A DNA stretch of 35,531 bases, from contig JASJXV010000018.1 in assembly GCA_030123805.1 (NCBI GenBank), forward strand, positions 1 to 35,531. Direction: 5' to 3'. Position 1 is the stretch's first letter. Each line of letters opens with the position of its first letter. Shown one piece after another: positions 4,370-34,608 of this stretch. This DNA is from Gammaproteobacteria bacterium. GTDB taxonomy: Bacteria; Pseudomonadota; Gammaproteobacteria; Pseudomonadales; Azotimanducaceae. The position numbers and the translations under genes are program-made. The notes beneath the pieces are model-generated. The model did not search any database, was not told the DNA's origin, and was given only the letters and a program-made list of their open reading frames with translations.

Positions 4370-5242
4370 ATGGTAGTAATTGAATACGAAGCGCCACAAA
4401 GTCTCGGCGAAGCTGTCAAGCTGTTGAGCGATTGTACTGACAAACCCGCCCGCGTTCTGGCAGGAGGGACCGATCTCATCGTTCAGTTGAGATCACAGGT
4501 GGGGGGTCCACAACTGATTGTAGATTTGAAGAAAATTCCCGAGATGATGGATGCCGTTTTGGATGAGAACGGCTTATCCCTCGGGCCATCAATGTGCTGC
4601 GCCGAACTCACAGCCAGGCAAGACATCAAGACTGTCTACCCGGGGCTCGTTGAGGCTGCCTATTTGATTGGCTCTACCCAAATCCAGGGTAGGGCCAGTG
4701 TTGGTGGCAATCTATGCAACTCATCACCTGCAGCCGATACGATTCCCGCGTTGATAGCGATTGCAGCTGAGTGTCTTATTATCGGACCTGATGGCGAGAG
4801 ACAGGTGCCAGTGGAGGACTTTGTTACCGGCGTTGGCGAGAATTGCATGGCATCCGATGAAATTCTGAAAAGAATTATTGTACCCCTGCCAGCCGCTGGA
4901 ACTGCAGACGCTTACCTGCGCTTCATTCCCAGAACAGAGATGGATATAGCCGTCGCGGGTGCAGGGGTCAGTGTCACCCTGGACAATAATGGGATCTGTA
5001 CGGCTGCTCGAATTGTGATTGGTGCGGTAGCACCAACAGCGTTGCTGGTTCCCGCCGCCGCAGAAGCCCTGGTCGGTAGTGATATGAATGATACTGCACT
5101 CCAGAATGCTGCAGCAGCGGCTTCGGCAGCTTCATCACCCATTGATGATCTAAGAGGCACGATCGAATACAGACAACACGTGGTTGGAGTACTGACGCGC
5201 AGAGCAGCAGTAATCGCCGCCGACCGAGTGAAGGAGAAATAA
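4370..5242 (+). CDS. Molybdenum hydroxylase FAD-binding (medium) subunit, CoxM/XdhB family
   Basis: This is the FAD subunit of a xanthine-dehydrogenase/CO-dehydrogenase-family enzyme; it passes electrons from the iron-sulfur subunit to an external acceptor. The 290-residue protein shows the FAD motifs AGGTDLIVQLR near residue 31 and ASVGGNLCNSSPAADTIPAL near 110. The C-terminal CO_deh_flav_C domain runs from about 175. The start has a strong GGAGGAG at 4361-4367. The small and large subunits follow directly, giving a medium-small-large order. The family is certain; the substrate is not. Confidence 0.9.
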   Translation: MVVIEYEAPQSLGEAVKLLSDCTDKPARVLAGGTDLIVQLRSQVGGPQLIVDLKKIPEMMDAVLDENGLSLGPSMCCAELTARQDIKTVYPGLVEAAYLIGSTQIQGRASVGGNLCNSSPAADTIPALIAIAAECLIIGPDGERQVPVEDFVTGVGENCMASDEILKRIIVPLPAAGTADAYLRFIPRTEMDIAVAGAGVSVTLDNNGICTAARIVIGAVAPTALLVPAAAEALVGSDMNDTALQNAAAAASAASSPIDDLRGTIEYRQHVVGVLTRRAAVIAADRVKEK

Positions 5243-5243
5243 A

Positions 5244-5723
5244 ATGGCCAAGACTCACGTATCCACAACAATTAACAATGAACCTGTGGAGTTTTTATGC
5301 GAGCCTAATCAAACACTACTCGATTGCCTGCGAAATGAATTACAAATGACGGGCACCAAGGAAGGTTGTTCCACTGGTGATTGTGGAGCATGTTCGGTCA
5401 CGGTTAATGGCCGTCTGGTCTGTTCTTGTCTGGTTTTTGGTGTGGAAGCGGAAGGACAAAATATAGGTACCATAGAGGGTATTGGTAAAGCCGAGAATCT
5501 GCATGTGATCCAACAGAAATTTCTCGAACATGCCGCACTGCAGTGCGGTATATGCACACCTGGACTGATTGTCGCCACGGAGGCACTGTTAGCTGAAAAC
5601 CCTGATCCAACAGAAGCAGAAGCCAGATATTATCTGGCAGGCAACCTTTGCCGCTGTACTGGATATGACAAAATTATTCGTGCAGTAATGGACTCTGCCG
5701 CCGAGATGAGAGGAACTGCCTGA
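5244..5723 (+). CDS. Molybdenum hydroxylase [2Fe-2S] small subunit, CoxS/XdhC type
   Basis: The small subunit carries two [2Fe-2S] clusters linking the molybdenum site to FAD. The plant-ferredoxin-type N-terminal domain has C42, C47, C50 and C60 or C62 (motif EGCSTGDCGACSV). The helical C-terminal domain has C101, C104, C136 and C138 (motifs QCGICTPG and GNLCRCTGY). At 159 residues it has the standard length. It starts 1 base after the previous stop, with AAGGAG at 5231-5236, and its TGA overlaps the ATG of the large subunit, so the three are translationally coupled. Confidence 0.94.
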   Translation: MAKTHVSTTINNEPVEFLCEPNQTLLDCLRNELQMTGTKEGCSTGDCGACSVTVNGRLVCSCLVFGVEAEGQNIGTIEGIGKAENLHVIQQKFLEHAALQCGICTPGLIVATEALLAENPDPTEAEARYYLAGNLCRCTGYDKIIRAVMDSAAEMRGTA

Positions 5724-7978
5724 TGAGTGAAGTAAAAGACTACAAATATATCGGACAAAGAACCATTCGCCCGGACGGGTTTGACAAGGTAACGGGGCGA
5801 GCAAATTTTGGCGCGGATCTGACCCTTCCCGGAATGTTGTGGGCAAGAGTAAAGAGAAGTCCTTACGCACATGCCAGGATTATCGATATCGATACCTCAA
5901 AGGCAGAAGCGCTTGCTGGTGTAATGGCCGTTGCTACAGCTGCCGATTTTCCGGCTATCGCATCCGAAACTCTACAGATGGGCGAGACCAGTGCTGACAT
6001 TCGTGACCTGGCGCGGAATAATCTTGCGCTTGAGAAGGTGCTCTATCACGGTCATGCGGTTGCCGCAGTTGCGGCTGTATCACAGACAATCGCTGATCAG
6101 GCAGTGGAATTGATTGAAGTTGAGTATGCAGAGTTAACTCCGGTTATGGATGTACTCGAAGCCATAAAGGATGATGCTCCAATACTGCATGATGACCTGT
6201 TTACCGCCGGGTTGGCTGAAACACCCGAAACCCCTTCCAATATTGCCATGCGAATGGAACTGAAGAAAGGCGATATAGACGCAGGTTTTGCCGAGGCAGA
6301 TGTTATTGTCGAACGAGAATATCAAACGCCGACAGTTCACCAGGGTTATATTGAGCCACATGCATGTACCGTTCGGTATGATGAAGATGGTCAATCGATG
6401 ATATGGTGTTGTACTCAGGGTCACTTTGACGTTCGGGCCAGTACGGCAAAAATACTGAATATGGAGCTGTCAAAAATAAAGGTGATTGCCAGTGAAATAG
6501 GTGGTGGATTTGGCGGTAAGACCACTATCTATCTTGAGCCCGTGGCGTTGGTTCTATCAAAGAAATCCGGCAGGCCAGTTAAACTGGTCATGAATCGGGA
6601 AGAGGTCTTCAGAGCTTCGGGTCCCGGTTCCGCCACCAGAAGCTGGATAAAGGTTGGCGCCAGGAAAGATGGCACCATCACAGCGATGCAGGGCATACTG
6701 CATTACGAAGCTGGGGCGTTCAAAGGTTCTCCGATGGCACCCGGAGTAATGTGTGTATTTACACCATACGACGTCGCAAATGTGCACATCGAAGGTTTCG
6801 ATGTGGTCGTGAATAAACCGAAGGTAGCGGCTTACAGAGCCCCTGGAGCCCCACAGGCGGAATTTGCTGCAGAGAGTGCAATCAACGAACTCGCTGACAA
6901 ACTGGACATGGATCCGATTGAATTGCGACTAAAAAATGCAGCAAAAGAGGGTACACAAGCCATCTATGGACCAAAATTCAAGGCTATTGGTTTGGTAGAG
7001 TGTCTGGAAGCCGCTAAAAACTCTGCACATTACAAGTCTCCGCTGGGTAAGAATCAGGGCCGGAGTATTGCCGCAGGTTTCTGGTTTAATGCCGGGATGA
7101 GTTCAAGTGTAGTTATCAATATGAATCCGGATGGAACTGTTGTTGTCGTCGAAGGATCCCCTGATATTGGCGGCTCTCGAGCATCCATGGCGATGATGGC
7201 GGCAGAAGAACTGGGCATTGCCGTGGAAAAGATAAAGCCGATCATCGCCGATACCGATGGCGTGGGTCTGAACTCCACAACAGGCGGCAGTCGTACCACG
7301 TTTGCTACCGGCATGGCGATTATTGAAGCAGCCCAGGATGTCGTAAAACAAATGAAAGAACGTGCGGCTGCGGTATGGAATGTTACCCTGGACCAGGTTG
7401 ACTGGGTTGACGGTGTGGCTGTCAATACTGCCGATGAAGCCAGGCTATCCGCCGCAGAGATTTGCGCTGCTGCCGGTAGTACGGGCGGCCCAATATCTGC
7501 TCGTGCATCCTTGACTGCGCGTGGCGCTGGACCCAGTTTTGCAGTGCATGTGGCTGATGTGGAAGTCGATCCGGACACGGGGAAAGTGGATGTCATTCGA
7601 TATACTGCCATCCAGGATGCAGGCAAGGCAATTCATCCAGGTTATGTTGAAGGCCAGTATCAGGGAGGGGCCGCTCAAGGGATCGGTTGGGCGCTCAATG
7701 AAGAGTATATCTACGATGAAAATGGTGTTCTGGAGAATGCCGGATATCTCGATTATCGAATCCCACTCGCCTCCGATTTACCCATGATAGAAACCGTTAT
7801 CGTGGAAGTCCCTAACCCATTTCATCCCTATGGCGTCAGGGGAGTAGGGGAATCGAGCATCATTCCACCCCTGGCTGCCGTCAGCAGTGCGGTGAGCAAT
7901 GCAATTGGAGTACGAATGTCTGAACTACCTTGTTCTCCCCCACGAGTGCTGAAAGCTATTCAGAGTAGAGATAACTAA
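5723..7978 (+). CDS. Molybdenum hydroxylase large subunit, CoxL/XdhA family (non-CO type)
   Basis: This catalytic subunit binds molybdopterin cytosine dinucleotide and hydroxylates or oxidises a substrate using water-derived oxygen. The 751-residue protein has GGGFGGK at 260-266, the active-site loop YRAPGAPQ at 371-378, and the conserved catalytic glutamate E710 in GVGE. The loop is not the AYxCSFR of true (form I) CO dehydrogenase, so this is not a CO dehydrogenase. It resembles form II enzymes acting on N-heterocycles, aldehydes or aromatic acyl-CoA esters. No signal peptide is seen, so it is cytoplasmic. It shares 1 base with the small-subunit stop. The substrate cannot be inferred. Confidence 0.92.
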   Translation: MSEVKDYKYIGQRTIRPDGFDKVTGRANFGADLTLPGMLWARVKRSPYAHARIIDIDTSKAEALAGVMAVATAADFPAIASETLQMGETSADIRDLARNNLALEKVLYHGHAVAAVAAVSQTIADQAVELIEVEYAELTPVMDVLEAIKDDAPILHDDLFTAGLAETPETPSNIAMRMELKKGDIDAGFAEADVIVEREYQTPTVHQGYIEPHACTVRYDEDGQSMIWCCTQGHFDVRASTAKILNMELSKIKVIASEIGGGFGGKTTIYLEPVALVLSKKSGRPVKLVMNREEVFRASGPGSATRSWIKVGARKDGTITAMQGILHYEAGAFKGSPMAPGVMCVFTPYDVANVHIEGFDVVVNKPKVAAYRAPGAPQAEFAAESAINELADKLDMDPIELRLKNAAKEGTQAIYGPKFKAIGLVECLEAAKNSAHYKSPLGKNQGRSIAAGFWFNAGMSSSVVINMNPDGTVVVVEGSPDIGGSRASMAMMAAEELGIAVEKIKPIIADTDGVGLNSTTGGSRTTFATGMAIIEAAQDVVKQMKERAAAVWNVTLDQVDWVDGVAVNTADEARLSAAEICAAAGSTGGPISARASLTARGAGPSFAVHVADVEVDPDTGKVDVIRYTAIQDAGKAIHPGYVEGQYQGGAAQGIGWALNEEYIYDENGVLENAGYLDYRIPLASDLPMIETVIVEVPNPFHPYGVRGVGESSIIPPLAAVSSAVSNAIGVRMSELPCSPPRVLKAIQSRDN

Positions 7979-17432: not shown

Positions 17433-18308
17433 TCATTCAATAATGGTCTCGCCTGATTCCTTCACTATTGTATTCTCAATGGCACCCAGACCTTCAATCT
17501 CTATTCTTACCACATCGCCTTCGGTAAGATAGACTGGCGGTTGCATAGCCATGCCAACCCCTGCCGGGGTTCCTGTTGCTAATACGTCACCCGGTTCCAG
17601 GGTAAAAGCCGTAGTCAGGTGCGCTATTTGCTCGTAACAATCAAAAATCAGATGCCGGGTATTGGAATCTTGTCTTAATTCCCCGTTTACCCAGGTTTTT
17701 AATTCCAGATTATGGGGATCATCAATGTCATCGGATGTCACAAGATAGGGTCCAAAGGGACCGTGGGTATCAAAGGACTTGCCGATCTGAAAGGTTTGGG
17801 CACGTAACTGCCAATCCCTGACACTCACATCATTGACAATTGTGAATCCGGCAATTACTTCATGCGCGCGCTCAACCGGAACGTGTCTGCAACGTTTTCC
17901 AATGATCACACCCAACTCGCCTTCGTAATCAAGCATATCAGATGCTATCGGTAGATCAATTGGATCAAAGGGACCGTTGACGCAGGTAGACTGTTTATTA
18001 AACCAGATCTGGACCTTGGGCTTATCTGTACCCGATTCTTGTATGTGATCGGCGTAATTAAGGCCGATTGCGAGGAATTTACCGGGTTTCATGATCGGAG
18101 CTTCAAGTCGAACCTGCGCAATAGGAATGCATGGTCCTGCATTGGCCAGCGCCTTGCGTGCTGTTTCCATAGCGGCATCTCCGGCGATCAGAAAATCCAG
18201 CATATTTGTGGGCAGATCAGGAGCATCTACCGAGAGATCGATCACACTGTTATCAGATACCAGCCCCAATCGGGTCCGCTTTTCATGGGTAAAGGTTACA
18301 ATTTTCAC
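17433..18308 (-). CDS. Fumarylacetoacetate hydrolase family protein
   Basis: An FAH-fold enzyme that hydrolyses or decarboxylates a 1,3-dicarbonyl compound, commonly in aromatic or ring-cleavage catabolism. It has the metal-binding E129-x-E131 in DYEGELGVIIGKR, then NDVSVRDWQ, GKSFDTHGPFGPYLV and the late ATGTPAGVGM. The long frame reads back into the regulator gene, but homology starts at KIVTFTHEKRTRLGLV, so GTG 18308 is the probable start (291 residues). It begins 4 bases after the TetR stop, making a two-gene operon regulated by that protein. The exact reaction is unknown. Confidence 0.87.
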   Translation of the reverse strand: MKIVTFTHEKRTRLGLVSDNSVIDLSVDAPDLPTNMLDFLIAGDAAMETARKALANAGPCIPIAQVRLEAPIMKPGKFLAIGLNYADHIQESGTDKPKVQIWFNKQSTCVNGPFDPIDLPIASDMLDYEGELGVIIGKRCRHVPVERAHEVIAGFTIVNDVSVRDWQLRAQTFQIGKSFDTHGPFGPYLVTSDDIDDPHNLELKTWVNGELRQDSNTRHLIFDCYEQIAHLTTAFTLEPGDVLATGTPAGVGMAMQPPVYLTEGDVVRIEIEGLGAIENTIVKESGETIIE

Positions 18309-18312
18309 CTGG

Positions 18313-18975
18313 CTAGAGTTTCCAGTTGATAACTTCAGGCAGTGGTGATCTTCGCGGCGCTGAAACCGCTGGTAACGGGCTTTGCGCCAACGCCCTGGCA
18401 ACCACGTCTGGTAACCCAAGCATGCGAAGAATACTGCGAATAGCTTCCTCTGAAACATCCGCTTCGAGATTACCCTGGGCTATTTCAAGTATCACATGAC
18501 GGACCATGCCGTGAATCAGATTTAGCGTAAAGTGGATGTCGCCAATCCTGAAACGACCGGCGGTTACTCCTTTTTGTATATATGAAAGACATTGCGCCAG
18601 ACTTTGATGCAATATCTGGTACCTCGAGCGGCCTGAATACTCCAGAAAAATCAGCCAGTCTTCGTTGTGTTGTGCCTGCTGAAAGGTGTATTTCAGTGTT
18701 GCAGCCATCAACATTGCTGGATCCTTGAGGGTCGAATTAAACCTGTCCAGTTGAGTATCGAACACTTCCTGAATATCATCCAGAACAGCTTCGAAAATAG
18801 CCTGCTTGTGTTCGAAATAATTGTAGAAAGTACCCAAACCGACATCCGCTTCTTCAGTAATGTCCTGAACAGAGATTTTTTCCTGACCCCCTCTGTAGGC
18901 AAGTTTTCGCGTTGCTTCAATCAAGGCGGTACGAGTTCGTTGTCGTTTACGTTCAGTGCGTGATAGATCTGCCAT
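18313..18975 (-). CDS. TetR family transcriptional regulator
   Basis: A 220-residue repressor with the N-terminal helix-turn-helix in ISVQDITEEADVGLGTFYNY (about residues 34-53) preceded by the basic stretch RTERKRQRTR. The C-terminal ligand domain has no recognised specificity. The FAH gene follows after 4 bases, so it probably controls that gene and its own promoter, and perhaps the divergent acyl-CoA dehydrogenase at 19424. An imperfect inverted repeat (GCATCA...TGATGC, 19072-19097) lies in the spacer and could be its operator, but this is weak. Confidence 0.85.
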   Translation of the reverse strand: MADLSRTERKRQRTRTALIEATRKLAYRGGQEKISVQDITEEADVGLGTFYNYFEHKQAIFEAVLDDIQEVFDTQLDRFNSTLKDPAMLMAATLKYTFQQAQHNEDWLIFLEYSGRSRYQILHQSLAQCLSYIQKGVTAGRFRIGDIHFTLNLIHGMVRHVILEIAQGNLEADVSEEAIRSILRMLGLPDVVARALAQSPLPAVSAPRRSPLPEVINWKL

Positions 18976-24121: not shown

Positions 24122-25243
24122 CTAATTCCCAGACAGGAACTCACTCGTGGCGAATCCCTGTTGACAAAGCCAATCCATGATTTCTTCATGAGTGCCTTTA
24201 AACATGATTCTATGCTGCTTCTTCTCCAACTGGTATGCGTACATTGGATCATAGTAATTGATTAGCAGTTCTGCGATCCACTCTTTGTGGAGTTCCGCTG
24301 TTCCGGTCTGTTGCTGCTGCAGAGCAGATTCCATCAAACTATTCAACGCGGCATATCTGGTGCCACCCAGTCGTTTGGAGATGCCATGCAAACTGTTTAA
24401 CAGATATCGTGAATACATCTCAAATGCGGCGCCTTCAGACTGGGCATTGTTTTTATACTCGAACCATTGATCGATGATATATTCTGCATGGATTCGATTA
24501 ACCCGTTCAGCCAGAGTAGCTTCAATAATAATCAACTCTGCAGCGTTCATCCTGGCGAACAGTGGATCTGGCACTTTCAGACGGCCAATCAAGGCACTCT
24601 CATCTTCTACTAGCAGTCGCTGGCATTGTGAATGATGGAGCTGCAATAGCCTGATTGCCAAAAGGTTCTCAAAATTAATTTGAGTTGGCTGCGGTGTGAG
24701 TCTTTTTCCAAATGCCGAACCTCGATGGCAGGCCATTGCTTCAAGGTCTACTTTTGCGTTGAATTGATGTAGTAGGCGGGTTTTACCGGTTCCGGTTTTC
24801 CCGCCAATAATATACAGCTCAGATGCAGCTGCCCATCTTTCGGTGCCAGCAATTAGAAAGCGTCGCAGGGCTTTATAACCACCGTCAATCCGCGGAATTT
24901 CTGTGCCGCATTCCGCTAGCCATGCAGTTGCGATTTTTGATCTTTGGCCACCTCTGAAGCAATACAGGCAAGCGTCTGGATTACGGCGAATGAATTCTTG
25001 CCACTGAGCGATGCGACAGGATTTTAGGTCTCCGCTAACCATCTTATGACCAGCGGTGATGGCCATTGCCGATCCCTGTTGCTTATAAATAATTCCAATT
25101 TGTTGCCTTTCAGAATCGTTGAGAAGGGGTAGGTTTACAGCCGTCGGGAAGGCACCCTTGCTAAACTCAATTTCGGCTCGAACGTCCAGCAACGGCCTGT
25201 TTTCAAGGAACAGACGTGGATAATCCTGCGCTGTGATCAGCAT
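24122..25243 (-). CDS. mnmH: tRNA 2-selenouridine synthase (SelU)
   Basis: MnmH replaces sulfur with selenium (via a geranylated intermediate) at the wobble 2-thiouridine of tRNAs for Lys, Glu and Gln. The N-terminal rhodanese domain has the active cysteine C95 in CLYCFRGGQRSKIATAWL (C97 in E. coli). The C-terminal P-loop NTPase has GGKTGTGKT at 147-155. The 373-residue length is typical. It implies selenophosphate synthetase (SelD) elsewhere in the genome and hence selenium use. It is a single gene, convergent with the stress protein. Confidence 0.93.
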   Translation of the reverse strand: MLITAQDYPRLFLENRPLLDVRAEIEFSKGAFPTAVNLPLLNDSERQQIGIIYKQQGSAMAITAGHKMVSGDLKSCRIAQWQEFIRRNPDACLYCFRGGQRSKIATAWLAECGTEIPRIDGGYKALRRFLIAGTERWAAASELYIIGGKTGTGKTRLLHQFNAKVDLEAMACHRGSAFGKRLTPQPTQINFENLLAIRLLQLHHSQCQRLLVEDESALIGRLKVPDPLFARMNAAELIIIEATLAERVNRIHAEYIIDQWFEYKNNAQSEGAAFEMYSRYLLNSLHGISKRLGGTRYAALNSLMESALQQQQTGTAELHKEWIAELLINYYDPMYAYQLEKKQHRIMFKGTHEEIMDWLCQQGFATSEFLSGN

Positions 25244-27027: not shown

Positions 27028-27606
27028 TCAACTCAATGTTGCAACCAGCCAATCAACGAATTTTTCAACTTCCTGCTGTGATTTCTCCGAGAACTTCATG
27101 ATGTAGAGCACATAGGCCACCCCCATCAATAGCGTGGCAAGCTCTTCAGGCGGTGCACCCGGGTTCTGCTCAATACGCTCCTCGATAATTCGATTCGCCA
27201 TACCCTCGATCAGTTTCTCCTGCAATTTCAGAAATCTGGGCCACACTGCTTCCCGAATGGATGCACTCCACTCAAATAGTATGCGGGAATGGTTTGGATA
27301 TCTATCGATGTATTCGAGGAAAATATGCAGAATTCGCCAGATTGTGGGTGTCTCCGGATCGATATCAATATTTTGTGGCAGGTCACCAAATACGCGTTCG
27401 GTTTCACCCAGGACCGCATCAACCAGGTCGTCCCGGGTAGGAAAATAGAAAAAGATAGTCGATACAGCGACACCTGCCCGCTTGGCGATTTCAGCATGAC
27501 GGGCCGCACTGATGCCCTGATCAGCGAAAACTTCCACTGCGATATCGAGTAGTTGTTTCTTTCTCTCCTGCGGAGGATACCTTTTTTTCTGCTGTTGCTT
27601 GTTCAT
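27028..27606 (-). CDS. TetR family transcriptional regulator of the molybdoenzyme locus
   Basis: The 192-residue protein starts MNKQQQKKRYPPQERKKQLL and has the helix-turn-helix in ARHAEIAKRAGVAVSTIFFY (about residues 36-55). The C-terminal domain would sense an unknown small molecule. The frame is open further upstream to 27924, but that stretch crosses the operator region and lacks homology, so ATG 27606 is the start. It is divergent from the molybdoenzyme operon at 27819. The shared spacer holds a duplicated palindrome that is its probable binding site, so it most likely represses both itself and the operon. Confidence 0.87.
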   Translation of the reverse strand: MNKQQQKKRYPPQERKKQLLDIAVEVFADQGISAARHAEIAKRAGVAVSTIFFYFPTRDDLVDAVLGETERVFGDLPQNIDIDPETPTIWRILHIFLEYIDRYPNHSRILFEWSASIREAVWPRFLKLQEKLIEGMANRIIEERIEQNPGAPPEELATLLMGVAYVLYIMKFSEKSQQEVEKFVDWLVATLS

Positions 27607-27664
27607 GGCGACTGCTCGTGCATTGTGGTGCTGAAATGGCGTTCCGAGGTTTATTAGAACACTG

Positions 27665-27722
27665 TTATTGACAATATTATCAATAGTAGCTAAGTTATCA
27701 CTACTGATAATATTGTCAATAA
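27665..27722. promoter_or_regulatory. Duplicated palindromic operator between TetR and molybdoenzyme genes
   Basis: Arms 27665-27682 (TTATTGACAATATTATCA) and 27705-27722 are 18-base perfect inverted repeats. Each arm also contains its own near-palindrome, TTGACAATATTATCAA (27668-27683) and CTGATAATATTGTCAA (27704-27719), centred 36 bases apart. Two TetR-type dimer sites are the simplest reading. Each arm holds a consensus TTGACA (plus strand 27668-27673; minus strand 27714-27719), so bound repressor would cover the -35 of both divergent promoters. A TAAGTT follows the plus -35 at 17 bases. Confidence 0.7.
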
Positions 27723-27818
27723 GAAAAATGAGCATTCTCATATGCTCAGCGCCCCGAAGAAGAAAGTCTTGAGAGAGAACTTTGATCGCAAATTCGTACC
27801 GATCCGGGGGGCGATGTA

Positions 27819-30719
27819 ATGAAAAAAGGTACCACGACTCTGCCGCGCAGGGATTTTCTAAAACTGAGTGGCGGAGCAGTCGGATTGTCACTGGTGACGT
27901 TGAACGGGTGTACTTCACCATCATTCTTGTCCAGTGTTAGTAAAGGCACAGCCAAACTCGCCTATAGTTCATGGGAAGATGTCTACACCAAAGAGTGGCG
28001 TTGGGACAAAGTAAGCTGGGGCTCGCATAATAACCAGTGTCTTCCTGCCGCCTGTTCTTTTCGGGTGTATTCGAAAAACGGTATCGTGTGGCGCGAAGAA
28101 CAGCACGCACAATCCGATGCATCCTCCGACGCCTATCCAGACTATAACCCCATGGGATGCCAGAAAGGTTGCGCCTTTCACAATTTGCTCTACAGCGAGG
28201 AGCGGTTGCGCTACCCAATGAAGCGGGCAGGTGAGCGTGGAGAGGGTAAATGGCAGCGAATCTCATGGGATCAGGCGTTAACAGAAGTTGCCGATGCCAT
28301 CCTTGACGCCCATGCAGAAGTAGGCTCCGACGGATTCCACATTGATTCGCCTCACCTGCATGCCGGATCTGTTGCGACAGCAGGTATCGGCCGACTTGGA
28401 AATCAACTCGGTGCCATTAGCCCCGATACCAATGTTGCCATCGGTGATGATCTAAAAGGTGTTTCCCAGGTGTTCGGCAAAATGCGCATGGGCATGACCT
28501 CGGATAACATGTTCGATGCCGAAATACTGATCTTCTCGAACACCAACTGGTCCTATACGGCAACGCCCATGTATCACTTCATCACCGAAGCGCGATACAA
28601 CGGATCTGAAGTGGTGCTGGTGAATCCTGACTATAACCCTTCCACGATTCATGCGGATATCCACGTGCCTGTATTACCTGCATCGGATGCTGCGTTGTGG
28701 CTGGGTGTGAGCCAGGTCATGATTGAAGAGGAGATCTATCATCGGGACTTCATCCTGGAACAGACGGATATGCCGATTCTGGTGCGCCTGGATAATGACA
28801 AATTCCTGTCTGCTGCAGAGATAGACGGTGGTAGGTCAGACCAGCTTTATTTCTATGATTCCGGAATAGCCGGTATTGCAAAAGCACCTCGAGCCCAATT
28901 GATCTACAACGGTCAACAGGAACTGGATGGTCGTTGGCGGGTGTCACTGAAAGATGGCACCACTGTTGAAGTTGAAACGGTCTTCAGGAAACTGAAAGAT
29001 AAACTTAATCGCGAATATACACCAGAGCTTGCCGGTGCCAAATGTGGCGTTACAGCGAAACTGATTCGGACCCTGGCCCGAAAGATAGCCACTAAACGCA
29101 CTCATTTTTACAACGGCTTCAGTTCTGCCAAAACCTACCACGGAGATCTGTCTGAAAGGGCAACCCTGCTGATGCTTGGCCTCAGCGGCAACTGGGGTAA
29201 ACCGGGCACAGGGTTCAATAACTTTCTGATGACCATAGATCATGTGGGGCATGTTGGCAGTACGGACAAAACCATAGCTCAAGGAAAAATGGCGGATCAA
29301 GCGCGGACTCTGCAGCAAGTAACGCAGCTGGTAAAATCACAGGATCCGGACGCGTCGGAAGAGGATGTCCATCTGGCGCTGGCGGTCATGTCACAACGGC
29401 AGTCAGGATCGGTTCCGCCTGCCATCTGGATGTATCGCTATGCAGGATACAACAAACTCTGGGACAGAAAAGAGTGGCAGGATCCGGCCTTGTCCAAGAC
29501 ATTTGGCGAGTACTTAAGCGAAGGCTTGGCAAAAGGCTATATTGACCCGGTATACCAATGCGATCCTGCGAAACAACCTCGAGTAATCATGTATCAATGC
29601 CATAATCCGTTACGCCGCCAGCGCAGCGGTGCACGGATGTATATTGAAGAGCTGTGGCCCAAAGCCAAGATGATATTCAGTGTAGAAACGAGAATGTCCA
29701 GCTCTGCTGCCTATTCTGATATTTTGCTGCCCGCGGCCTGGTACTACGAAAAGATGGATACCACCATGGTGTTTGCCCACTACCCATTCCAATCAATGCA
29801 GCAACAAGCGGTTAACCCGCCGGGTGAAGCTCTTGCAGAATGGGATATCTATCGAAATCTCATGGCCAAGATCTCTGCACGCGCTGCAGCAAGGGGGATG
29901 AAACAATTTGTCGACCGTGCCGGTGCTACCAGACTTTATAGTGACCTGGAGAGCCGGTTTACCATAAATGGCGAACTAAACAATAATCGGGATGTGGTGC
30001 GCGAAATGGTCGCTTACAGTGCGGCAACAGGAAGTTTCCCCAGTGACTACACTCTGGAAAAATATGAACAGGATGGACAGGCTCGTATCACCAGTCTTGG
30101 TAATAGTACACAGCATCACACCAATGCCAGTGACTGGAATGTGAAAAAACCCAACTTTGCGCTGGGCTGGCATGTGGAGAAAAAATTGCCATATCCTACG
30201 CATACTCGCCGGGCGCAGTTCTATATGGATCACGAATGGTTCATCGAATCCGGTGAGGCGTTACCCGTCCACAAGGATTCTCCACCTGTGGGTGGAGACC
30301 ATCCTTTCCATCTTATCGGTGGCCATGCACGGATCAGCGTGCATACCCTGCATATGTCCAATCCGCATTTCCTGAAACTGCACCGTGGTCAACCGGTGTT
30401 GTTTATTAATGACCAGACGGCCAATGAAAAAGGTATAGCTGATGGTGACCAGGTGCGAATGTTTAACGATTATGACGAGACCGAATTCCAGGCATCGCTA
30501 TCTGCGGCAGTTGGCAGGGACCAGGTAGTTACTTACATGTGGGAACCCTATCAATTCAAGAACTGGAAATCCCACGATGCGATGACCATCGGTCTGCCAA
30601 AACCCACTCAGTTGGCCATGAACTATACCCAGTGTCGCTTTCACTCATCGACGGGTAGCCCCAATCCCACCACTGATCGGGATATTCAGGTGAGCATAGA
30701 AAAAGTGAAGGAGGCATAA
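27819..30719 (+). CDS. Type II DMSO-reductase-family molybdopterin subunit alpha (ethylbenzene/C25 dehydrogenase-like)
   Basis: This is the catalytic bis-MGD subunit of a periplasmic enzyme related to ethylbenzene, steroid C25 and dimethylsulfide dehydrogenases and selenate/chlorate reductases. The 966 residues start with a Tat signal (PRRDFLKLSGG at 9-19) followed by a cysteine, C31. The FS0 cluster motif is H70-x3-C74-x4-C79-x34-C114, with histidine as the first ligand as in this subfamily. The block VAIGDDLKGVSQVFG supplies the likely aspartate Mo ligand (D210 or D211). The C-terminal molydop-binding domain runs from about 820. The beta, gamma and delta genes follow closely. Substrate and direction of catalysis cannot be told from the sequence. 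Confidence 0.9.
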   Translation: MKKGTTTLPRRDFLKLSGGAVGLSLVTLNGCTSPSFLSSVSKGTAKLAYSSWEDVYTKEWRWDKVSWGSHNNQCLPAACSFRVYSKNGIVWREEQHAQSDASSDAYPDYNPMGCQKGCAFHNLLYSEERLRYPMKRAGERGEGKWQRISWDQALTEVADAILDAHAEVGSDGFHIDSPHLHAGSVATAGIGRLGNQLGAISPDTNVAIGDDLKGVSQVFGKMRMGMTSDNMFDAEILIFSNTNWSYTATPMYHFITEARYNGSEVVLVNPDYNPSTIHADIHVPVLPASDAALWLGVSQVMIEEEIYHRDFILEQTDMPILVRLDNDKFLSAAEIDGGRSDQLYFYDSGIAGIAKAPRAQLIYNGQQELDGRWRVSLKDGTTVEVETVFRKLKDKLNREYTPELAGAKCGVTAKLIRTLARKIATKRTHFYNGFSSAKTYHGDLSERATLLMLGLSGNWGKPGTGFNNFLMTIDHVGHVGSTDKTIAQGKMADQARTLQQVTQLVKSQDPDASEEDVHLALAVMSQRQSGSVPPAIWMYRYAGYNKLWDRKEWQDPALSKTFGEYLSEGLAKGYIDPVYQCDPAKQPRVIMYQCHNPLRRQRSGARMYIEELWPKAKMIFSVETRMSSSAAYSDILLPAAWYYEKMDTTMVFAHYPFQSMQQQAVNPPGEALAEWDIYRNLMAKISARAAARGMKQFVDRAGATRLYSDLESRFTINGELNNNRDVVREMVAYSAATGSFPSDYTLEKYEQDGQARITSLGNSTQHHTNASDWNVKKPNFALGWHVEKKLPYPTHTRRAQFYMDHEWFIESGEALPVHKDSPPVGGDHPFHLIGGHARISVHTLHMSNPHFLKLHRGQPVLFINDQTANEKGIADGDQVRMFNDYDETEFQASLSAAVGRDQVVTYMWEPYQFKNWKSHDAMTIGLPKPTQLAMNYTQCRFHSSTGSPNPTTDRDIQVSIEKVKEA

Positions 30720-30720
30720 A

Positions 30721-31773
30721 ATGAAGATTCTGAATAATACAGTTCCCTCCAAGCAACAATTGATGGCATCAGATCGCCAGCTCGCTACCGTAATCGACCT
30801 TAACAAGTGCATGGGTTGCCAATCCTGCGTGGTGGCTTGTAAAAATCTGTGGACTGAACGGGAAGATGCGCATCACATGCGCTGGATGAGTGTCGCAACG
30901 GCTCCGGGATCATTGTATCCACGGGATTTTGAGAAAAAAGGTGGTGGGTATGATCAGCAGGGGAACGCACAGGCTGGTGAATTACCATCTATGGTGGATT
31001 CGGGTGATGCGTTCACTTTCAATCATCAGGAAGTGTTATACGAAGGCAATGCACAAAGTAAGAAACTCGAGCCAACGTCTGCACTCGGGGGAGCACCTGA
31101 GTGGGGCTATAACTGGGAAGAGGACCAGGGTAAAGGTGAATGGCCAAATCCTTATTTTTTCTACATGCCCCGCAAATGTAACCACTGTAGCCAACCGGCA
31201 TGTGTGGATGCATGTTCCAGAAATGCTATTTACAAACGAGAAGATGGTATTGTCCTGATTGATCAGGATAAATGTGAAGGACATCGGCATTGTGTTGCTG
31301 CATGCCCCTACAAGATGATCTTTTTCAATCCGGTGACACAGAAAAGTGAAAAATGCATAGAGTGTTTTCCTCGGATTGATCAGAAAATTGCCAGCGCTTG
31401 TAACCGCCAATGCCCTGGTCGTACACGGGCGTTTGGTTTTCTTGATGATCGCAATAGTCTGGTCTATCGGTTGGTGGAAGAGTTCAAGGTGGCTATTCCG
31501 TTACACCCTGAATACGGTACTACTCCGAACGTATTTTATGTGCCACCCATGTCGCCGCAGGCATTTGATGACAACAATGAGTTGACGGATGAAATGCGGA
31601 TACCCGATTCTGTGTTAGAGGGCTACTTTGGTCCCGGAGTGCATAAAGCACTGGCTATACTGTTAGCCGAAAGAGAAAAGAAGAAGCAGGGTGAAGCGTC
31701 AGAACTTATGGATCTTCTGATCAGCCGTAAGTGGCAGGATCGTTTCGCAGAATTCACTAACCATCCGGTTTGA
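30721..31773 (+). CDS. Iron-sulfur subunit beta of the type II molybdoenzyme
   Basis: This subunit carries four Fe-S clusters from the alpha subunit to the haem subunit, as in NarH, EbdB and DdhB. The cysteine sets are C30/C33/C36/C40, C153/C156/C161/C165, C185/C191/C195 and C212/C215/C227/C231. In the third set the second ligand is H188 (KCEGHRHCVAACP) where a cysteine would make a [4Fe-4S] cluster; relatives have Trp or Tyr and form a [3Fe-4S] cluster. There is no signal peptide; it is expected to be exported folded with alpha by Tat. It starts 1 base after alpha, with GAAGGAGG as ribosome site. Confidence 0.92.
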   Translation: MKILNNTVPSKQQLMASDRQLATVIDLNKCMGCQSCVVACKNLWTEREDAHHMRWMSVATAPGSLYPRDFEKKGGGYDQQGNAQAGELPSMVDSGDAFTFNHQEVLYEGNAQSKKLEPTSALGGAPEWGYNWEEDQGKGEWPNPYFFYMPRKCNHCSQPACVDACSRNAIYKREDGIVLIDQDKCEGHRHCVAACPYKMIFFNPVTQKSEKCIECFPRIDQKIASACNRQCPGRTRAFGFLDDRNSLVYRLVEEFKVAIPLHPEYGTTPNVFYVPPMSPQAFDDNNELTDEMRIPDSVLEGYFGPGVHKALAILLAEREKKKQGEASELMDLLISRKWQDRFAEFTNHPV

Positions 31774-31787
31774 GGGAGGCAAGACAG

Positions 31788-32441
31788 ATGAAGGTACCCT
31801 ATATAAAGCAACACGCCGATGTCTTTCTGGATCCCAACGCCGGGCTGTGGAAGAAATCAGCAGTCGGACGTTTCAATCTGATGCCAACGCCGATCAAAAT
31901 GATCGAACACCTCTCACCTTTTATGGCGAACAGCACTGAGTATGGCAAGGTAAATCAGATCGAAAGCCGGATTGCTCATAATGGCGCCAAAATCACTATT
32001 CTGCTTTCGTGGCAGGATGCCACCAGAAACGATGCAATCAGGGATCTGGACCAATTCATCGATGGCGTTGCAGTGATGTTCCCGTTTACCAGCAACGCCA
32101 ATCCCCTGACCATGGGGGATGCTGAAAATCCCGTCAATGCATGGTTCTGGCGGGCTGATAAAGAAGAGCCCTATGACGTAATAGCCCACGGCTACGGATC
32201 CAGTAAACGTCGCATCGGAAAGGAACTTGGACTAGTCGTGAATTCGAGCTATCAGGATGGTCGTTGGACTGTGGTGTTTCAAAGAGCATTACGCGCAGGC
32301 TTGATTTCTCATCAACAAGTAAATTTTGCCCCGGACAAGGTTACCGGTATCTCGTTCGCTGTGTGGGATGGCGGGAATGCAGACCGAGCAGCGCAGAAGT
32401 CCTTCTCCGGTGGATGGGAACCGCTGGAATTAGAAGCCTGA
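31788..32441 (+). CDS. Haem b subunit gamma of the type II molybdoenzyme
   Basis: The 217-residue protein belongs to the EbdC/DdhC/SerC haem-binding family, which coordinates haem b with one methionine and one lysine. The candidates are M109 (ANPLTMGDAENP, equivalent to M101 of EbdC) and K204 (RAAQKSFSGGW, equivalent to K191). The start is ATG 31788, 8 bases after GGAGG; a frame start at 31770 overlaps beta. No signal peptide is visible at MKVPYIKQHADVF, so export must ride on the alpha Tat signal or differ from DdhC. It is the electron outlet to a soluble carrier such as cytochrome c. Confidence 0.85.
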   Translation: MKVPYIKQHADVFLDPNAGLWKKSAVGRFNLMPTPIKMIEHLSPFMANSTEYGKVNQIESRIAHNGAKITILLSWQDATRNDAIRDLDQFIDGVAVMFPFTSNANPLTMGDAENPVNAWFWRADKEEPYDVIAHGYGSSKRRIGKELGLVVNSSYQDGRWTVVFQRALRAGLISHQQVNFAPDKVTGISFAVWDGGNADRAAQKSFSGGWEPLELEA

Positions 32442-32442
32442 C

Positions 32443-33072
32443 ATGTCTGACGCGATAATACGGAGCCAGGTCTATCGACTACTCGGCGTCTGGTTCAGTC
32501 CTCCTGTTGATGACGTTTGGGCGGATGCATTAACCGATGGCTCACTCAAATGCATGGCCCCTGGTGGAATGTTGCTGCCCTATGCGTTGGATTTGCATGA
32601 ACATCGATTTCAAAACGACATGAGCGTTGCAACATTGGCCCAGGTTTATTCGACCTGTTTCGAAATAGGCAACGCGACGGTCTCTTTTCATGAAAGAACC
32701 TACACCCTTGATGCGACGAATAAGTTGTTCGAGGAACTGTTTCGTTACTACGAACACTTTGGTCTTGATCTAAAGAATAGCGACAACGCTCATTGGCCTG
32801 ATTCAATTCTGGTGGAACTGGACTTTATGCAGTATCTGGTCCATCTGGAATCGATCGCTAGCCGAGAAGAGGATGTTCTGTCCCTACAGAGAGGCCAGCG
32901 CGATTTTCTAAAACGGCATCTCATCCCGTTAGCAACAGGTATTGCAGACAAGCTCCACACTCTGAGCATTACCCCTTATGAGCAACTGGCAAACTTGATG
33001 ATCCGGTATGTGGATCATGATCGTGATTACCTTGCCGGGGCAGTAGACGACGTAATTAGTAGCGCCAATTAG
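32443..33072 (+). CDS. TorD/NarJ-type chaperone delta for the molybdoenzyme
   Basis: A 209-residue, all-helical cytoplasmic protein of the redox-enzyme maturation family (EbdD, DdhD, SerD). Such chaperones hold the alpha subunit during cofactor insertion and guard its Tat signal. It shows the family's central acidic stretch LVELDFMQYLVHLESIASRE (the E-x-D-H/F-x3-L/M region) and an N-terminal helical bundle. It starts 1 base after the gamma stop and is the fourth gene of the alpha-beta-gamma-delta order that is standard in ethylbenzene-dehydrogenase and related operons. Confidence 0.88.
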   Translation: MSDAIIRSQVYRLLGVWFSPPVDDVWADALTDGSLKCMAPGGMLLPYALDLHEHRFQNDMSVATLAQVYSTCFEIGNATVSFHERTYTLDATNKLFEELFRYYEHFGLDLKNSDNAHWPDSILVELDFMQYLVHLESIASREEDVLSLQRGQRDFLKRHLIPLATGIADKLHTLSITPYEQLANLMIRYVDHDRDYLAGAVDDVISSAN

Positions 33073-33155
33073 TGGCTAGCCAGCTATTACACACTTCTAT
33101 ATCGGCATCGAAAGAGTGAGAATGGAACTCAGTTTCCTGTTACACGGTGAATGTG

Positions 33156-33632
33156 ATGACCGAAGTAGATAGTGAATTGGTACAAAAGACCTATACGGCA
33201 ATACTGCAGCACATGGTGGATCACGGTTGGGCGCCACATTACACACAATTGGCCGCGGAATTTGCCATATCCACCGAGGCAGCACGACTTGCCGTAAATG
33301 AAGCTGCGAGCATTGGCATTGGTTGCTGGACCTCGCCGGGTACTGATCAGGTGGGTTCCTGGGCACCCTTCAACAATACACCTACGCACTACCTCGTTAG
33401 TGTGGATGGTGAACGCAAGTGGTTTGGCCAGTGTGGTCTCGAGGTCAATGCCATTCGCTGGTTATTCCCTGGAAAAGAAGTGCTGGTAGAAACACGCGAC
33501 CTGGCCACTGCTGAACCAATCAGGGTTCGCTATAAAGATGAAGAAATTCTCGAAATAACGCCAGATACGACGGTGGGCCACATTAATAATCCGATGTGGA
33601 AGTGGGCTGAATTACCCAGTCCGGATAACTGA
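33156..33632 (+). CDS. MerB-like (alkylmercury lyase family) protein without second cysteine
   Basis: The 158-residue protein has an N-terminal winged-helix-like region (QKTYTAILQHMVDHGWAPHY) and a C-terminal MerB-like region. There, HYLVSVDGERKWFGQCGLEV aligns with the MerB block around C96-A-L-D, giving C-G-L-E here. The second MerB catalytic cysteine (in the CpaTG segment) is missing: the matching stretch is VETRDLATAEPIRV. Organomercury cleavage is therefore unlikely. It follows the chaperone by 83 bases and may belong to the molybdoenzyme operon, perhaps in maturation or sensing. GTG 33147 is an alternative start. Confidence 0.65.
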   Translation: MTEVDSELVQKTYTAILQHMVDHGWAPHYTQLAAEFAISTEAARLAVNEAASIGIGCWTSPGTDQVGSWAPFNNTPTHYLVSVDGERKWFGQCGLEVNAIRWLFPGKEVLVETRDLATAEPIRVRYKDEEILEITPDTTVGHINNPMWKWAELPSPDN

Positions 33633-33638
33633 GAACGT

Positions 33639-33869
33639 ATGAATCTCTTCGCGTGCGAAGACAATGTGTTTAAGTGGTCACAGACTGATCCGGATTCGGG
33701 AGACGGTATCAGACCCCTGGAAGATTGGGCTGCTATGTTCTCAACGGATTTGTTCAAGCGACGCCTTGACCCGGATTACCTCTCCAGGATGGGAGAATAT
33801 GCGCGACAAAATCGCGCGGTACTGGTAGAGCGGGGCATGACCGGACCCTGGTTTATGCGTCCAAAATAG
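33639..33869 (+). CDS. Conserved-looking 76-residue hypothetical protein
   Basis: No known domain was recognised. The sequence begins MNLFACEDNVFKWS and has an acidic middle (DPDSGDGIRPLEDW), then a basic helical part (FKRRLDPDYLSRMGEYARQNRAVL), ending GMTGPWFMRPK. There is no signal peptide. It starts 6 bases after the MerB-like gene, so the two are surely co-transcribed and probably work together. Its single cysteine, near the N-terminus, could be functional. It is convergent with the glutathione S-transferase gene, 16 bases away. Confidence 0.6.
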   Translation: MNLFACEDNVFKWSQTDPDSGDGIRPLEDWAAMFSTDLFKRRLDPDYLSRMGEYARQNRAVLVERGMTGPWFMRPK

Positions 33870-33885
33870 CTACTGCCCAATTAAA

Positions 33886-34608
33886 CTAACGATATTTGTT
33901 GTACAGATCCCGGATCCATTGGGTCTTGTTCCGGTTGCTTTCGACGAATGCCTGCAGGGGACCAGGTAAGTCAGGTGCGGCACTGAGGCCATACTGCATC
34001 TCCATCCGCGCCATCGGAGATAAAATAGCAGCGGCAGCGATGTCGAGTCGACTGAAGCGGCTCCCCATCATAAAGGCATGGCTTTGGTGAAGGTCCTGTA
34101 AGCGGTCAATGCCTGCTTGCAACTTCAGTTCTGCGCCGACTGCGGTCTCGGCGTTGATCGTCATGAATTCACGCATTCTTTGTTGCAGCTGCTCAAATGC
34201 TACCTTATAAAAAGATGCTCCCTCCTCAGGACCATCCACTGTAAACAAAGGCACCACAGCATTTGCATCCTGAAGCAGATGGTGATACCAGAAACATCGA
34301 AGCTCAACCCCAAGCTCATCATCGATGTAGCGTTCCCACTCGACACTTTCCTGAGCATTCCCGTCAACCGCCAGGGACTTTCCGGGAAATGTTGCTTCGA
34401 GATAACTGATTATATCACTGGAATTCTGCACTACCGTTGCATCGTGAACCAACACGGGTACTGCCGATTTTGGTGCCAGCTTCAGGATGATTTCACGATG
34501 CTGTCCAACCAGAAGATTGACTACCTCATAATCCAACTGCTTATAATCAAGCACCCAGCGTACTTTTTCACAGTAATGTGAAATGGGAAACTGATAGAGT
34601 GTAATCAC
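33886..34608 (-). CDS. Glutathione S-transferase family protein
   Basis: The 240 residues show an N-terminal thioredoxin-like domain (MITLYQFPISHYCEKVRWVL, with a cysteine in the active-site position) and the conserved cis-proline and glutathione-binding segment SAVPVLVHDATVVQNSSDII. An all-helical C-terminal domain follows, with the N-capping motif FSRLDIAAAAIL. It could conjugate or reduce electrophiles arising in catabolism; the physiological substrate is unknown. It is encoded opposite to the molybdoenzyme operon and appears to be a single gene. Confidence 0.85.
   Translation of the reverse strand: MITLYQFPISHYCEKVRWVLDYKQLDYEVVNLLVGQHREIILKLAPKSAVPVLVHDATVVQNSSDIISYLEATFPGKSLAVDGNAQESVEWERYIDDELGVELRCFWYHHLLQDANAVVPLFTVDGPEEGASFYKVAFEQLQQRMREFMTINAETAVGAELKLQAGIDRLQDLHQSHAFMMGSRFSRLDIAAAAILSPMARMEMQYGLSAAPDLPGPLQAFVESNRNKTQWIRDLYNKYR

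Follow-up and report, generated by a model that had tools for sequence, protein, structure and literature searches.

What does the molybdoenzyme of this locus do, and do the reading frames that follow it belong to the same system? We analyzed a 35,531-nucleotide stretch of DNA (the window) from a Gammaproteobacteria bacterium of the family Azotimanducaceae (GenBank assembly GCA_030123805.1, contig JASJXV010000018.1, positions 1 to 35,531 of the forward strand). A sequence-only reading had described positions 27607-33869 as a type II molybdoenzyme operon, exported by the twin-arginine translocation (Tat) pathway, with two extra genes and without a named substrate. We consider it quite probable that the locus combines an operon for a hydroxylase of the ethylbenzene dehydrogenase (EbdA) clade with an adjacent, independent homologue of the organomercurial lyase MerB that contains selenocysteine (Sec). 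Judged by its sequence, the second protein is a MerB homologue among whose relatives there is a chemically striking form, with predicted Sec at both catalytic sites.

A single MerB-like reading frame

The two supposed extra genes, i.e., the open reading frames 33147-33632 and 33639-33869, share one frame and are split by a single TGA (33630-33632). Because this is the only in-frame TGA between them, and because reading through it gives one full MerB-family protein, we conclude that they are one gene. The read-through product scored 56.6 bits with the Pfam MerB profile (cut-off 27) and covered profile positions 2-123 of 126, whereas the first frame taken alone scored 40.9 bits over positions 2-77, and the second had no match. 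Neither NCBIfam MerB model was reached (27.0 against a cut-off of 193, and 23.0 against 200). In the alignment with MerB2 (5c17, E 0.0088), the residue encoded by the TGA falls on the cysteine of GTCKQIHYF, i.e., the Cys159 place, and the cysteine of FGQC falls on the Cys96 place. Counted from the ATG at 33156, U159, C93, and E96 occupy the places of C159, C96, and D99, which we take to be the catalytic residues of MerB.

The fold was predicted with AlphaFold2 from an alignment of 44 sequences (mean predicted local distance difference test score 96.4). All 11 Foldseek matches with E <=0.001 were MerB (MerB fold, E 1.3e-09). Superposition on MerB2 with VIA-align gave Z 17.3 and a root mean square deviation of 3.6 over 193 residues, and the rows that followed MerB were LexA-type helix-turn-helix proteins with Z <=4.6. 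The likeness to MerB and MerB2 (3f0o, 5c17) extends over the whole fold, the Pfam profile, and both catalytic cysteine positions; the differences are the UGA in place of Cys159, Glu in place of Asp99, and an identity of 20% in the structural alignment with MerB2. No mer operon genes were recognized in the window, and a plasmid search for relatives of the protein returned one merB (26.5%).

Conservation of the TGA codons

We define site 1 as the MerB Cys96 place and site 2 as the MerB Cys159 place. The gene was found in 8 of 206 genomes of the same bacterial family (seven genera, the window's genome included; identities down to 51%). All eight copies have the TGA at site 2, the residues after it stay conserved in the read-through protein, and two copies (G016 and G830) have a second TGA at site 1. 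Among 395 Desulfobacterota genomes, the NCBIfam SaoL model (NF040728) matched 61 places in 51 genomes, a set that represents the reach of this model and not all MerB; all 61 were fetched and aligned. With TGA read as Sec, the combinations at sites 1 and 2 were Sec/Sec in 39 matches (31 genomes), Cys/Sec in five, Cys/Cys in 15, and unclear because of a frameshift in two. Over the Desulfobacterota and family genes together, every stop at these positions is TGA (52 at site 2 and 43 at site 1), the two frameshifted genes (L243 and L263) being left out of the site-2 count and of the hairpin test below. Among 369 genomes sampled from the window's class, two besides the window's own had weak Cys/Cys relatives.

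In a MerB tree of 65 rows (quick search, both site columns masked, built without L243, L263, L264, L254, L214, and L244; long branches meet near the roots), the family genes nest among the double-TGA Desulfobacterota genes, with L215 and L221 nearest. Because of this nesting, and with the root assumed, the Cys at site 1 of the family genes would most simply be a later change from Sec, the G016 copy still being Sec/Sec, and the tree suggests transfer of the gene into the window's lineage.

Three further observations were made on these genes. L243 and L263 have a TGA at site 1, and ahead of site 2 their reading frame appears to shift (through sequencing error or decay). L244 and L241 are nearly identical, but one member of the pair has TGA at site 2 and the other has Cys; the rest of their group is Cys/Cys, and the difference may reflect a gain of Sec, decay, or a sequencing error. 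Finally, on the contig G177:C166 (L169 / L182), ~5 kb separates a Cys/Cys MerB-like gene from another type II alpha gene.

A further close known system is SaoL, the MerB-like organometallic lyase of the SAO system, which likewise belongs to the MerB family and has Sec at the second catalytic site. The window protein differs from it in score (16.4 bits against the NF040728 cut-off of 140) and in motif (NU, compared to CU in SaoL); Sec at the second site with the CU motif was also seen in L209 and L210. The cut-off was passed by two of the 61 Desulfobacterota matches, both Cys/Sec. Four of the 39 double-TGA relatives were scanned, and none of these was above any NCBIfam cut-off. In the parts of the reviews that deal with it (PMC13188914, PMC9312934), the Sec-containing MerB-like family of the SAO system is given with one Sec and the motif CU, and the newer review names it SaoL, whereas relatives of the window gene have Sec at both sites. 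A MerB homologue of the latter kind finds no mention in the portions of the literature searched, these reviews included, and the main texts of PMC2398784, PMC12013277, and PMC5029168 make no mention of MerB.

Hairpins and selenocysteine machinery

We compared hairpin scores to a null model of random synonymous recoding of the same residues; it should be noted that the rows are related and do not represent independent trials. At site 2, the score after TGA was 16.56, compared to 11.78 for the null model (n=52; p<=0.05 in 29/52), whereas after Cys codons it was 12.56 compared to 12.15 (n=17; p<=0.05 in 3/17). At site 1, the corresponding values were 15.17 and 10.03 after TGA (n=41; p<=0.05 in 27/41), and 8.86 and 8.51 after Cys codons (n=28; p<=0.05 in 1/28). 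Thus, the hairpins after TGAs exceed what the protein needs, and those after Cys codons do not. The window's candidate for a selenocysteine insertion sequence (SECIS) is the hairpin UCUUCG-CGUG-CGAAGA (Table 1); in G830, the hairpin is CUCUUCC-GGUC-GGAAGAG and encodes different residues. At 20 to 23 nt past the TGA, the four bases read GGUC in 40/52 and CGUG in 7/52, and the pair beside the loop is C-G in 31, U-A in nine, and G-C in seven of 47 rows. In the eight family genes, the codons at +4 to +9 past the TGA, which form UCUUCG-CGUG-CGAAGA except in G830, are frozen: of 154 pairs that agree in the residue, 147 agree in the codon as well, compared to 1144 of 2584 overall. A consensus scan scored the hairpin at 33646-33661 as an intrinsic terminator-like site; this score is likely to be wrong, and a trap for automatic annotation.

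The host genome encodes SelA (588.6 bits) and SelB (454.4 bits) side by side, both above cut-offs, and a tRNA-Sec with a TCA anticodon. A gene for the tRNA 2-selenouridine synthase MnmH/SelU (500.5 bits, cut-off 361) is located in the window at 24122-25243, ~8 kb before the MerB-like gene; in G869 (L202 1748-3202), MnmH/SelU (400.0 bits, same cut-off) immediately precedes the MerB gene in the same orientation.

Several observations weigh against reading the TGA as Sec in a MerB-type enzyme. (i) The catalytic Asp99 of MerB is replaced by Glu (E96). (ii) The window's own hairpin has p 0.043 against the synonymous null, and six of the eight family members taken singly are above 0.05. Folding of the whole region around the window hairpin is unremarkable (z -0.20); we judged whole-region folding energy to be a poor test for SECIS elements and used the synonymous-codon null instead. 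In a weaker control, i.e., compared to other codon positions of the same genes, the top 5% holds 18/52 site-2 and 3/43 site-1 hairpins (medians 7% and 11%); the Mann-Whitney values of this control take no account of relatedness, and we place no weight on them. (iii) SelB is above the cut-off in 36/58 relatives, so that the Sec machinery is needed but is no special sign. SelB is below the cut-off in G016, although this genome has a double-TGA copy, and tRNA-Sec passes in six of the eight carriers, G869 (77% complete) and G874 (88% complete) being the two others. (iv) No recurrent mercury gene was found beside the MerB-like gene in the eight family loci or in 20 Desulfobacterota loci. (v) All eight family homologues share an ATG two codons past the TGA.

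The last of these is the best point for a gene that is truly split into two polypeptides, the second restarted at this ATG and associating with the first into one fold; both halves are also open on their own. Nonetheless, we regard a split gene as very unlikely. The second TGA, at the Cys96 site of G016 and G830, has no start codon close behind it, and the 14 YAAU-type genes from Desulfobacterota that have two TGAs carry Ser (11), Cys (2), or Asn (1) in place of the Met. The hairpin excess, the frozen codons after the TGA, and the fact that every stop at both sites is TGA also speak against it. A pseudogene broken by a nonsense mutation, for which the two fragments yielded by ordinary gene calling might be taken, has next to no probability, given the same TGA in all eight carriers of seven genera at identities down to 51%, the conservation of the protein past the TGA, and the location of the TGAs on two catalytic cysteines. 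Decoding of the TGA at 33630-33632 as Sec is, on the comparative evidence, very likely.

The molybdoenzyme and its active site

The alpha-beta-gamma-delta order of the sequence-only reading stands: all four genes were found in this order on the plus strand (Table 1), which is also the subunit order of EbdABCD. The start coordinate of that reading, 27607, marks the edge of a divergent TetR gene and lies outside the enzyme. The Tat export claim was borne out by a twin-arginine motif, RRDFLK, at the alpha N-terminus, as was the H-x3-C motif of the iron-sulfur cluster FS0 (H70-x3-C74, plus C79 and C114 in the alignment), and delta is a TorD/NarJ-type chaperone by both Pfam and NCBIfam profiles, as had been claimed. 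Of the Met/Lys haem ligands proposed for gamma, the Met of a TMG motif is invariant in 11/11 aligned sequences; the Lys could not be placed with certainty.

The set of alpha relatives comprised 161 distinct sequences, taken from named contigs, from the window's genome and the genomes related to it, from a sample of its class, and from Desulfobacterota; the scan of named genome contigs contributed the best 80 of 568 confirmed relatives. A tree was built by quick search from 85 rows, i.e., 83 collected alphas, EbdA, and ClrA, with SerA, DdhA, CmdA, and AhyA sequences absent; long branches meet outside the EbdA clade. The window alpha and EbdA share a clade of 11 rows (support 100 in the Shimodaira-Hasegawa-like approximate likelihood ratio test, stem 0.49). 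The outgroup, ClrA, is far from this clade, and the alphas of two Sterolibacterium metagenome-assembled genomes (MAGs), used as unverified stand-ins for S25dA, form one clade of six rows and another of four, both apart from the window alpha. Thus, of the phylogeny that had been proposed as a check, the grouping with EbdA, apart from ClrA and the Sterolibacterium MAG alphas, was obtained from a tree that did not include SerA, DdhA, CmdA, and AhyA. The sequence-only reading had placed the enzyme equally near ethylbenzene, steroid C25, and dimethyl sulfide dehydrogenases and selenate/chlorate reductases; alpha belongs beside EbdA. Because alpha is inside a characterized dehydrogenase clade, which that reading itself held to remove the novelty, part of the novelty of the enzyme is gone.

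Within the EbdA clade, the window alpha belongs to a four-row subclade together with L126 (a MAG labelled Alphaproteobacteria CSMAG_2577, alpha 82% identical to the window's), L170 (a Desulforhopalus MAG), and L013 (the same bacterial family as the window's host); EbdA itself is outside this subclade. Residues H179, D210, and K438 of the window alpha correspond to EbdA H192, D223, and K450. The His192 position is conserved in 11/11 clade rows and in 0/74 other type II alphas, the position of the molybdenum ligand Asp223 is Asp in 85/85 rows, and that of Lys450 is Lys in 11/11 clade rows and 68/74 others. With EbdA (2ivf), the likeness includes this His/Asp/Lys set, the FS0 H-x3-C motif, and homology across most of beta and of the haem-b gamma, the best solved relatives of which are 2ivf_B and 2ivf_C. 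In the window alpha, Trp87 of EbdA is replaced by Leu and Trp481 by Phe, two residues that presumably line the pocket. The alkyl hydroxylases S25dA (steroid C25 dehydrogenase), CmdA (p-cymene dehydrogenase), and AhyA (alkane C2-methylene hydroxylase) are likewise of type II, with the Asp ligand and the Lys. According to the part of PMC7803848 that treats these residues, His192 is the expected base in EbdA, and the ahy, cmd, and S25d sequences have another residue there, whereas it is kept in the window alpha. AhyA was not placed, since its published primer matched none of 148, later 171, loci exactly.

The position of alpha in the EbdA clade and the presence of the catalytic His of EbdA uphold the reading as a type II hydroxylase. 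We conclude that the enzyme is most likely an oxygen-independent, water-using C-H hydroxylase of the EbdA type, and not a reductase. By tree position and residues, it would be a distinct new subclade among the ethylbenzene-dehydrogenase-type hydroxylases. Given the 49% identity to EbdA and the changed pocket residues, its substrate probably differs from that of EbdA, and an alkyl-aromatic or isoprenoid compound is probable. NCBIfam models of the type II dimethyl sulfoxide reductase subfamily match all four subunits end to end, and beta is above its cut-off (503.1 compared to 480.7 bits). As points on the other side, alpha (944.5 compared to 984.75), gamma (162.1 compared to 169.85), and delta (113.3 compared to 152.3) are under theirs, and no pathway gene adjoining the operon names a substrate.

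Ethylbenzene dehydrogenase proper might be suspected, EbdA being the closest solved and named protein and a member of the same clade with the same His/Asp/Lys. This identity is improbable at 48.7% identity, with both Trp residues changed and EbdA outside the subclade of the window alpha. Moreover, the NCBIfam ethylbenzene dehydrogenase equivalog cut-offs were missed by all four subunits: alpha 1156.5 against 2000, beta 549.5 against 740, gamma 177.6 against 400, and delta 97.7 against 360. A respiratory reductase of the selenate/chlorate/perchlorate type shares the subunit plan but is highly improbable: ClrA is far outside the clade (in the tree without SerA and DdhA), the catalytic His is common only to the EbdA clade, and among solved structures alpha matched EbdA with 1087 bits, compared to 370 for the perchlorate reductase PcrA and 156 for NarG. 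The molybdoenzyme is thus taken here as a hydroxylase of the EbdA type with its own subclade.

Relationship between the operon and the MerB-like gene

The ATG of the MerB-like gene lies 83 nt past delta on the same strand, and no promoter-like site was found in 32950-34000; because of this gap and this lack, the gene may be transcribed from the molybdoenzyme operon here. It could also be a fifth gene of the operon proper, acting, e.g., on an organometal or organochalcogen product, a possibility favored by the same arrangement. We regard this as unlikely. The operon with the 82% orthologous alpha has no MerB-like gene within its 10-kb flanks, the seven other family carriers have no alpha beside the MerB-like gene in the stretches fetched, and G016 has an alpha relative (53%) and the MerB-like gene on different contigs. 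No further gene is common to all eight family loci. In 20 of the 61 Desulfobacterota loci, the 14 largest groups of neighbors were gene pieces, antisense frames, a Uup-like ATP-binding cassette ATPase (five loci), and others in two or three loci, with no telling common gene. Because the flanks of the 82% ortholog lack the gene, neighbors differ in other carriers, and no telling neighbor is shared, the operon and the MerB-like gene are most likely independent genes that are adjacent by chance.

Among individual neighborhoods, G008 has an FAH gene (L032 2225-3091) near the Sec-MerB gene and beside Rieske dioxygenase genes, and the FAH-family protein of the window (17433-18458) is 62% identical to it. 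In G857 (L199 1363-2462), the Sec-MerB gene adjoins genes for a regulator of the MerR family and for a membrane protein of the DsbD type. A MerR-type protein was also seen at L286 5195-5782, with a relative in L271.

Regulation and genome context

Table 1. Features of the window at the molybdoenzyme operon and the MerB-like gene
Feature	Position	Strand	Basis
TetR-type regulator, HapR-like, 192 aa, ATG at 27606	27028..27606	-	Pfam TetR_N 4.3e-13; divergent from alpha
Probable TetR operator, 23-nt inverted repeat, 96% complementary	27665..27722	.	each arm holds TTGAYAATATTRTCAA with 0 or 1 mismatch
Alpha, 966 aa, predicted molybdenum bis(pyranopterin guanine dinucleotide) catalytic subunit	27819..30719	+	EbdA clade; NCBIfam EbdA model 1156.5 bits; PDB 2ivf_A 1087 bits
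Beta, 350 aa, iron-sulfur protein	30721..31773	+	2ivf_B 522 bits; TIGR03478 503.1 bits
Gamma, haem b, EB_dh family	31770..32441	+	probable start ATG 31788; Pfam EB_dh 3.6e-28; 2ivf_C 146 bits
Delta, 209 aa, TorD/NarJ-type assembly chaperone	32443..33072	+	TIGR03482 113.3 bits; Pfam Nitrate_red_del 1.2e-09
MerB-fold gene, predicted selenoprotein, 237 aa read through	33156..33869	+	in-frame UGA (Sec159); Pfam MerB 3.3e-15; MerB2 alignment; predicted fold
In-frame TGA at the MerB catalytic Cys159 place	33630..33632	+	MerB2 alignment; conserved in 8/8 bacterial-family homologues
SECIS-like hairpin UCUUCG-CGUG-CGAAGA	33646..33661	+	14 to 29 nt after the UGA

The inverted repeat between the divergent TetR gene and alpha is a probable TetR operator. 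The window contains two matches to TTGAYAATATTRTCAA with <=2 mismatches, compared to 0.09 expected. At the locus L041, with an 82% orthologous alpha, one such site with two mismatches occurs ~70 bp upstream of alpha (0.02 expected), and a TetR 68% identical to the window's is encoded ~2 kb from alpha. A PADLOC scan returned nothing for the TetR or the selenoprotein. Viral contigs gave no relative of alpha (two pattern matches, neither confirmed), and the plasmid relatives were ClrA (two records), six haloarchaeal proteins, and one from Alisedimentitalea, all with <32% identity.

The window's genome (3.49 Mb in 252 contigs, 94.8% complete) encodes, in addition to the window alpha, nine near-complete type II alphas as well as two fragments at contig edges, with 36-41% identity to the window alpha. 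Such extra alphas are located on contigs C13, C49, C129, C150, C173, and C251 of this genome (G000; L002-L012), and for several of them G425, G002, and the MAG of L056 contain close counterparts. The 62.8-kb contig G425:C63 of the MAG CSMAG_2577 (L163-L165) carries five type II alphas, the 82% ortholog included. It also encodes additional beta subunits and chaperones as well as a glycyl-radical enzyme and the corresponding activase, and it has the look of an island devoted to oxygen-independent C-H activation. The many extra alphas, together with the alphas and the glycyl-radical enzyme of the ortholog contig, suggest that the organism is a specialist in oxygen-independent C-H chemistry.

The SCP-x thiolase, FAH-family gene, HemF, and two acyl-CoA dehydrogenases reported earlier are all present in the window. 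Of these, the thiolase, the acyl-CoA dehydrogenases, and the FAH gene are located at a distance of ~1 to 12 kb from the molybdoenzyme, and a link between them and the enzyme would be conjectural. Thiolase-like genes occur near two other operons of the EbdA clade (L168 6033-7627 and L043 16972-18141; 34-35% to the window's SCP-x thiolase), and in L168 the thiolase-like gene is followed by a possible DUF35-like protein, as judged by eye. Three genes at 4370-7978 of the window encode a molybdenum hydroxylase of the xanthine/CO-dehydrogenase type (flavin adenine dinucleotide, 2Fe-2S, and MoCoBD subunits).

Proposed chemistry and implications

The molybdoenzyme would be a TetR-controlled, Tat-exported alpha-beta-gamma complex with delta as its chaperone. 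By analogy with ethylbenzene dehydrogenase, Mo(VI) held by D210 would take hydrogen from an activated C-H bond of a hydrocarbon-like substrate, H179 would act as the base, the oxygen would be supplied by water, and the electrons would exit via iron-sulfur clusters and haem b. In the MerB-like protein, the UGA would be decoded as Sec by SelA, SelB, and tRNA-Sec with the SECIS hairpin 14 nt downstream, and Sec159 and Cys93 would take the place of the cysteine pair that organomercurial lyase uses in catalysis, some relatives using Sec at both places. The likely chemistry would be protonolysis of a carbon-mercury or related carbon-metal bond, in which the selenolate may serve as the metal-binding nucleophile. 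That the protein has mercury or organometal lyase activity is, from its sequence, about an even bet.

We hold the chances to be evenly balanced that a widespread branch of MerB with Sec for Cys at one or both catalytic sites represents an organomercury or organometal lyase of Desulfobacterota and other bacteria, invisible to gene callers and to merB surveys. It would be invisible because the UGA cuts the gene at the residues by which MerB is recognized: the Sec-MerB genes show up as two or three fragments in ordinary gene calling. In the part of its description that covers screening, one merB survey tool checked its merB references for the E. coli residues Tyr93 and Cys159 (PMC11308531), and, because Cys159 is demanded, it would discard Sec159 forms. 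If the branch is what we propose, the metal-binding pair of the lyase would, with Sec at both sites, consist of two selenols, an arrangement that we did not find described for MerB in the literature searched. The question of who demethylates mercury in anoxic sediment would then become testable with Sec-MerB genes.

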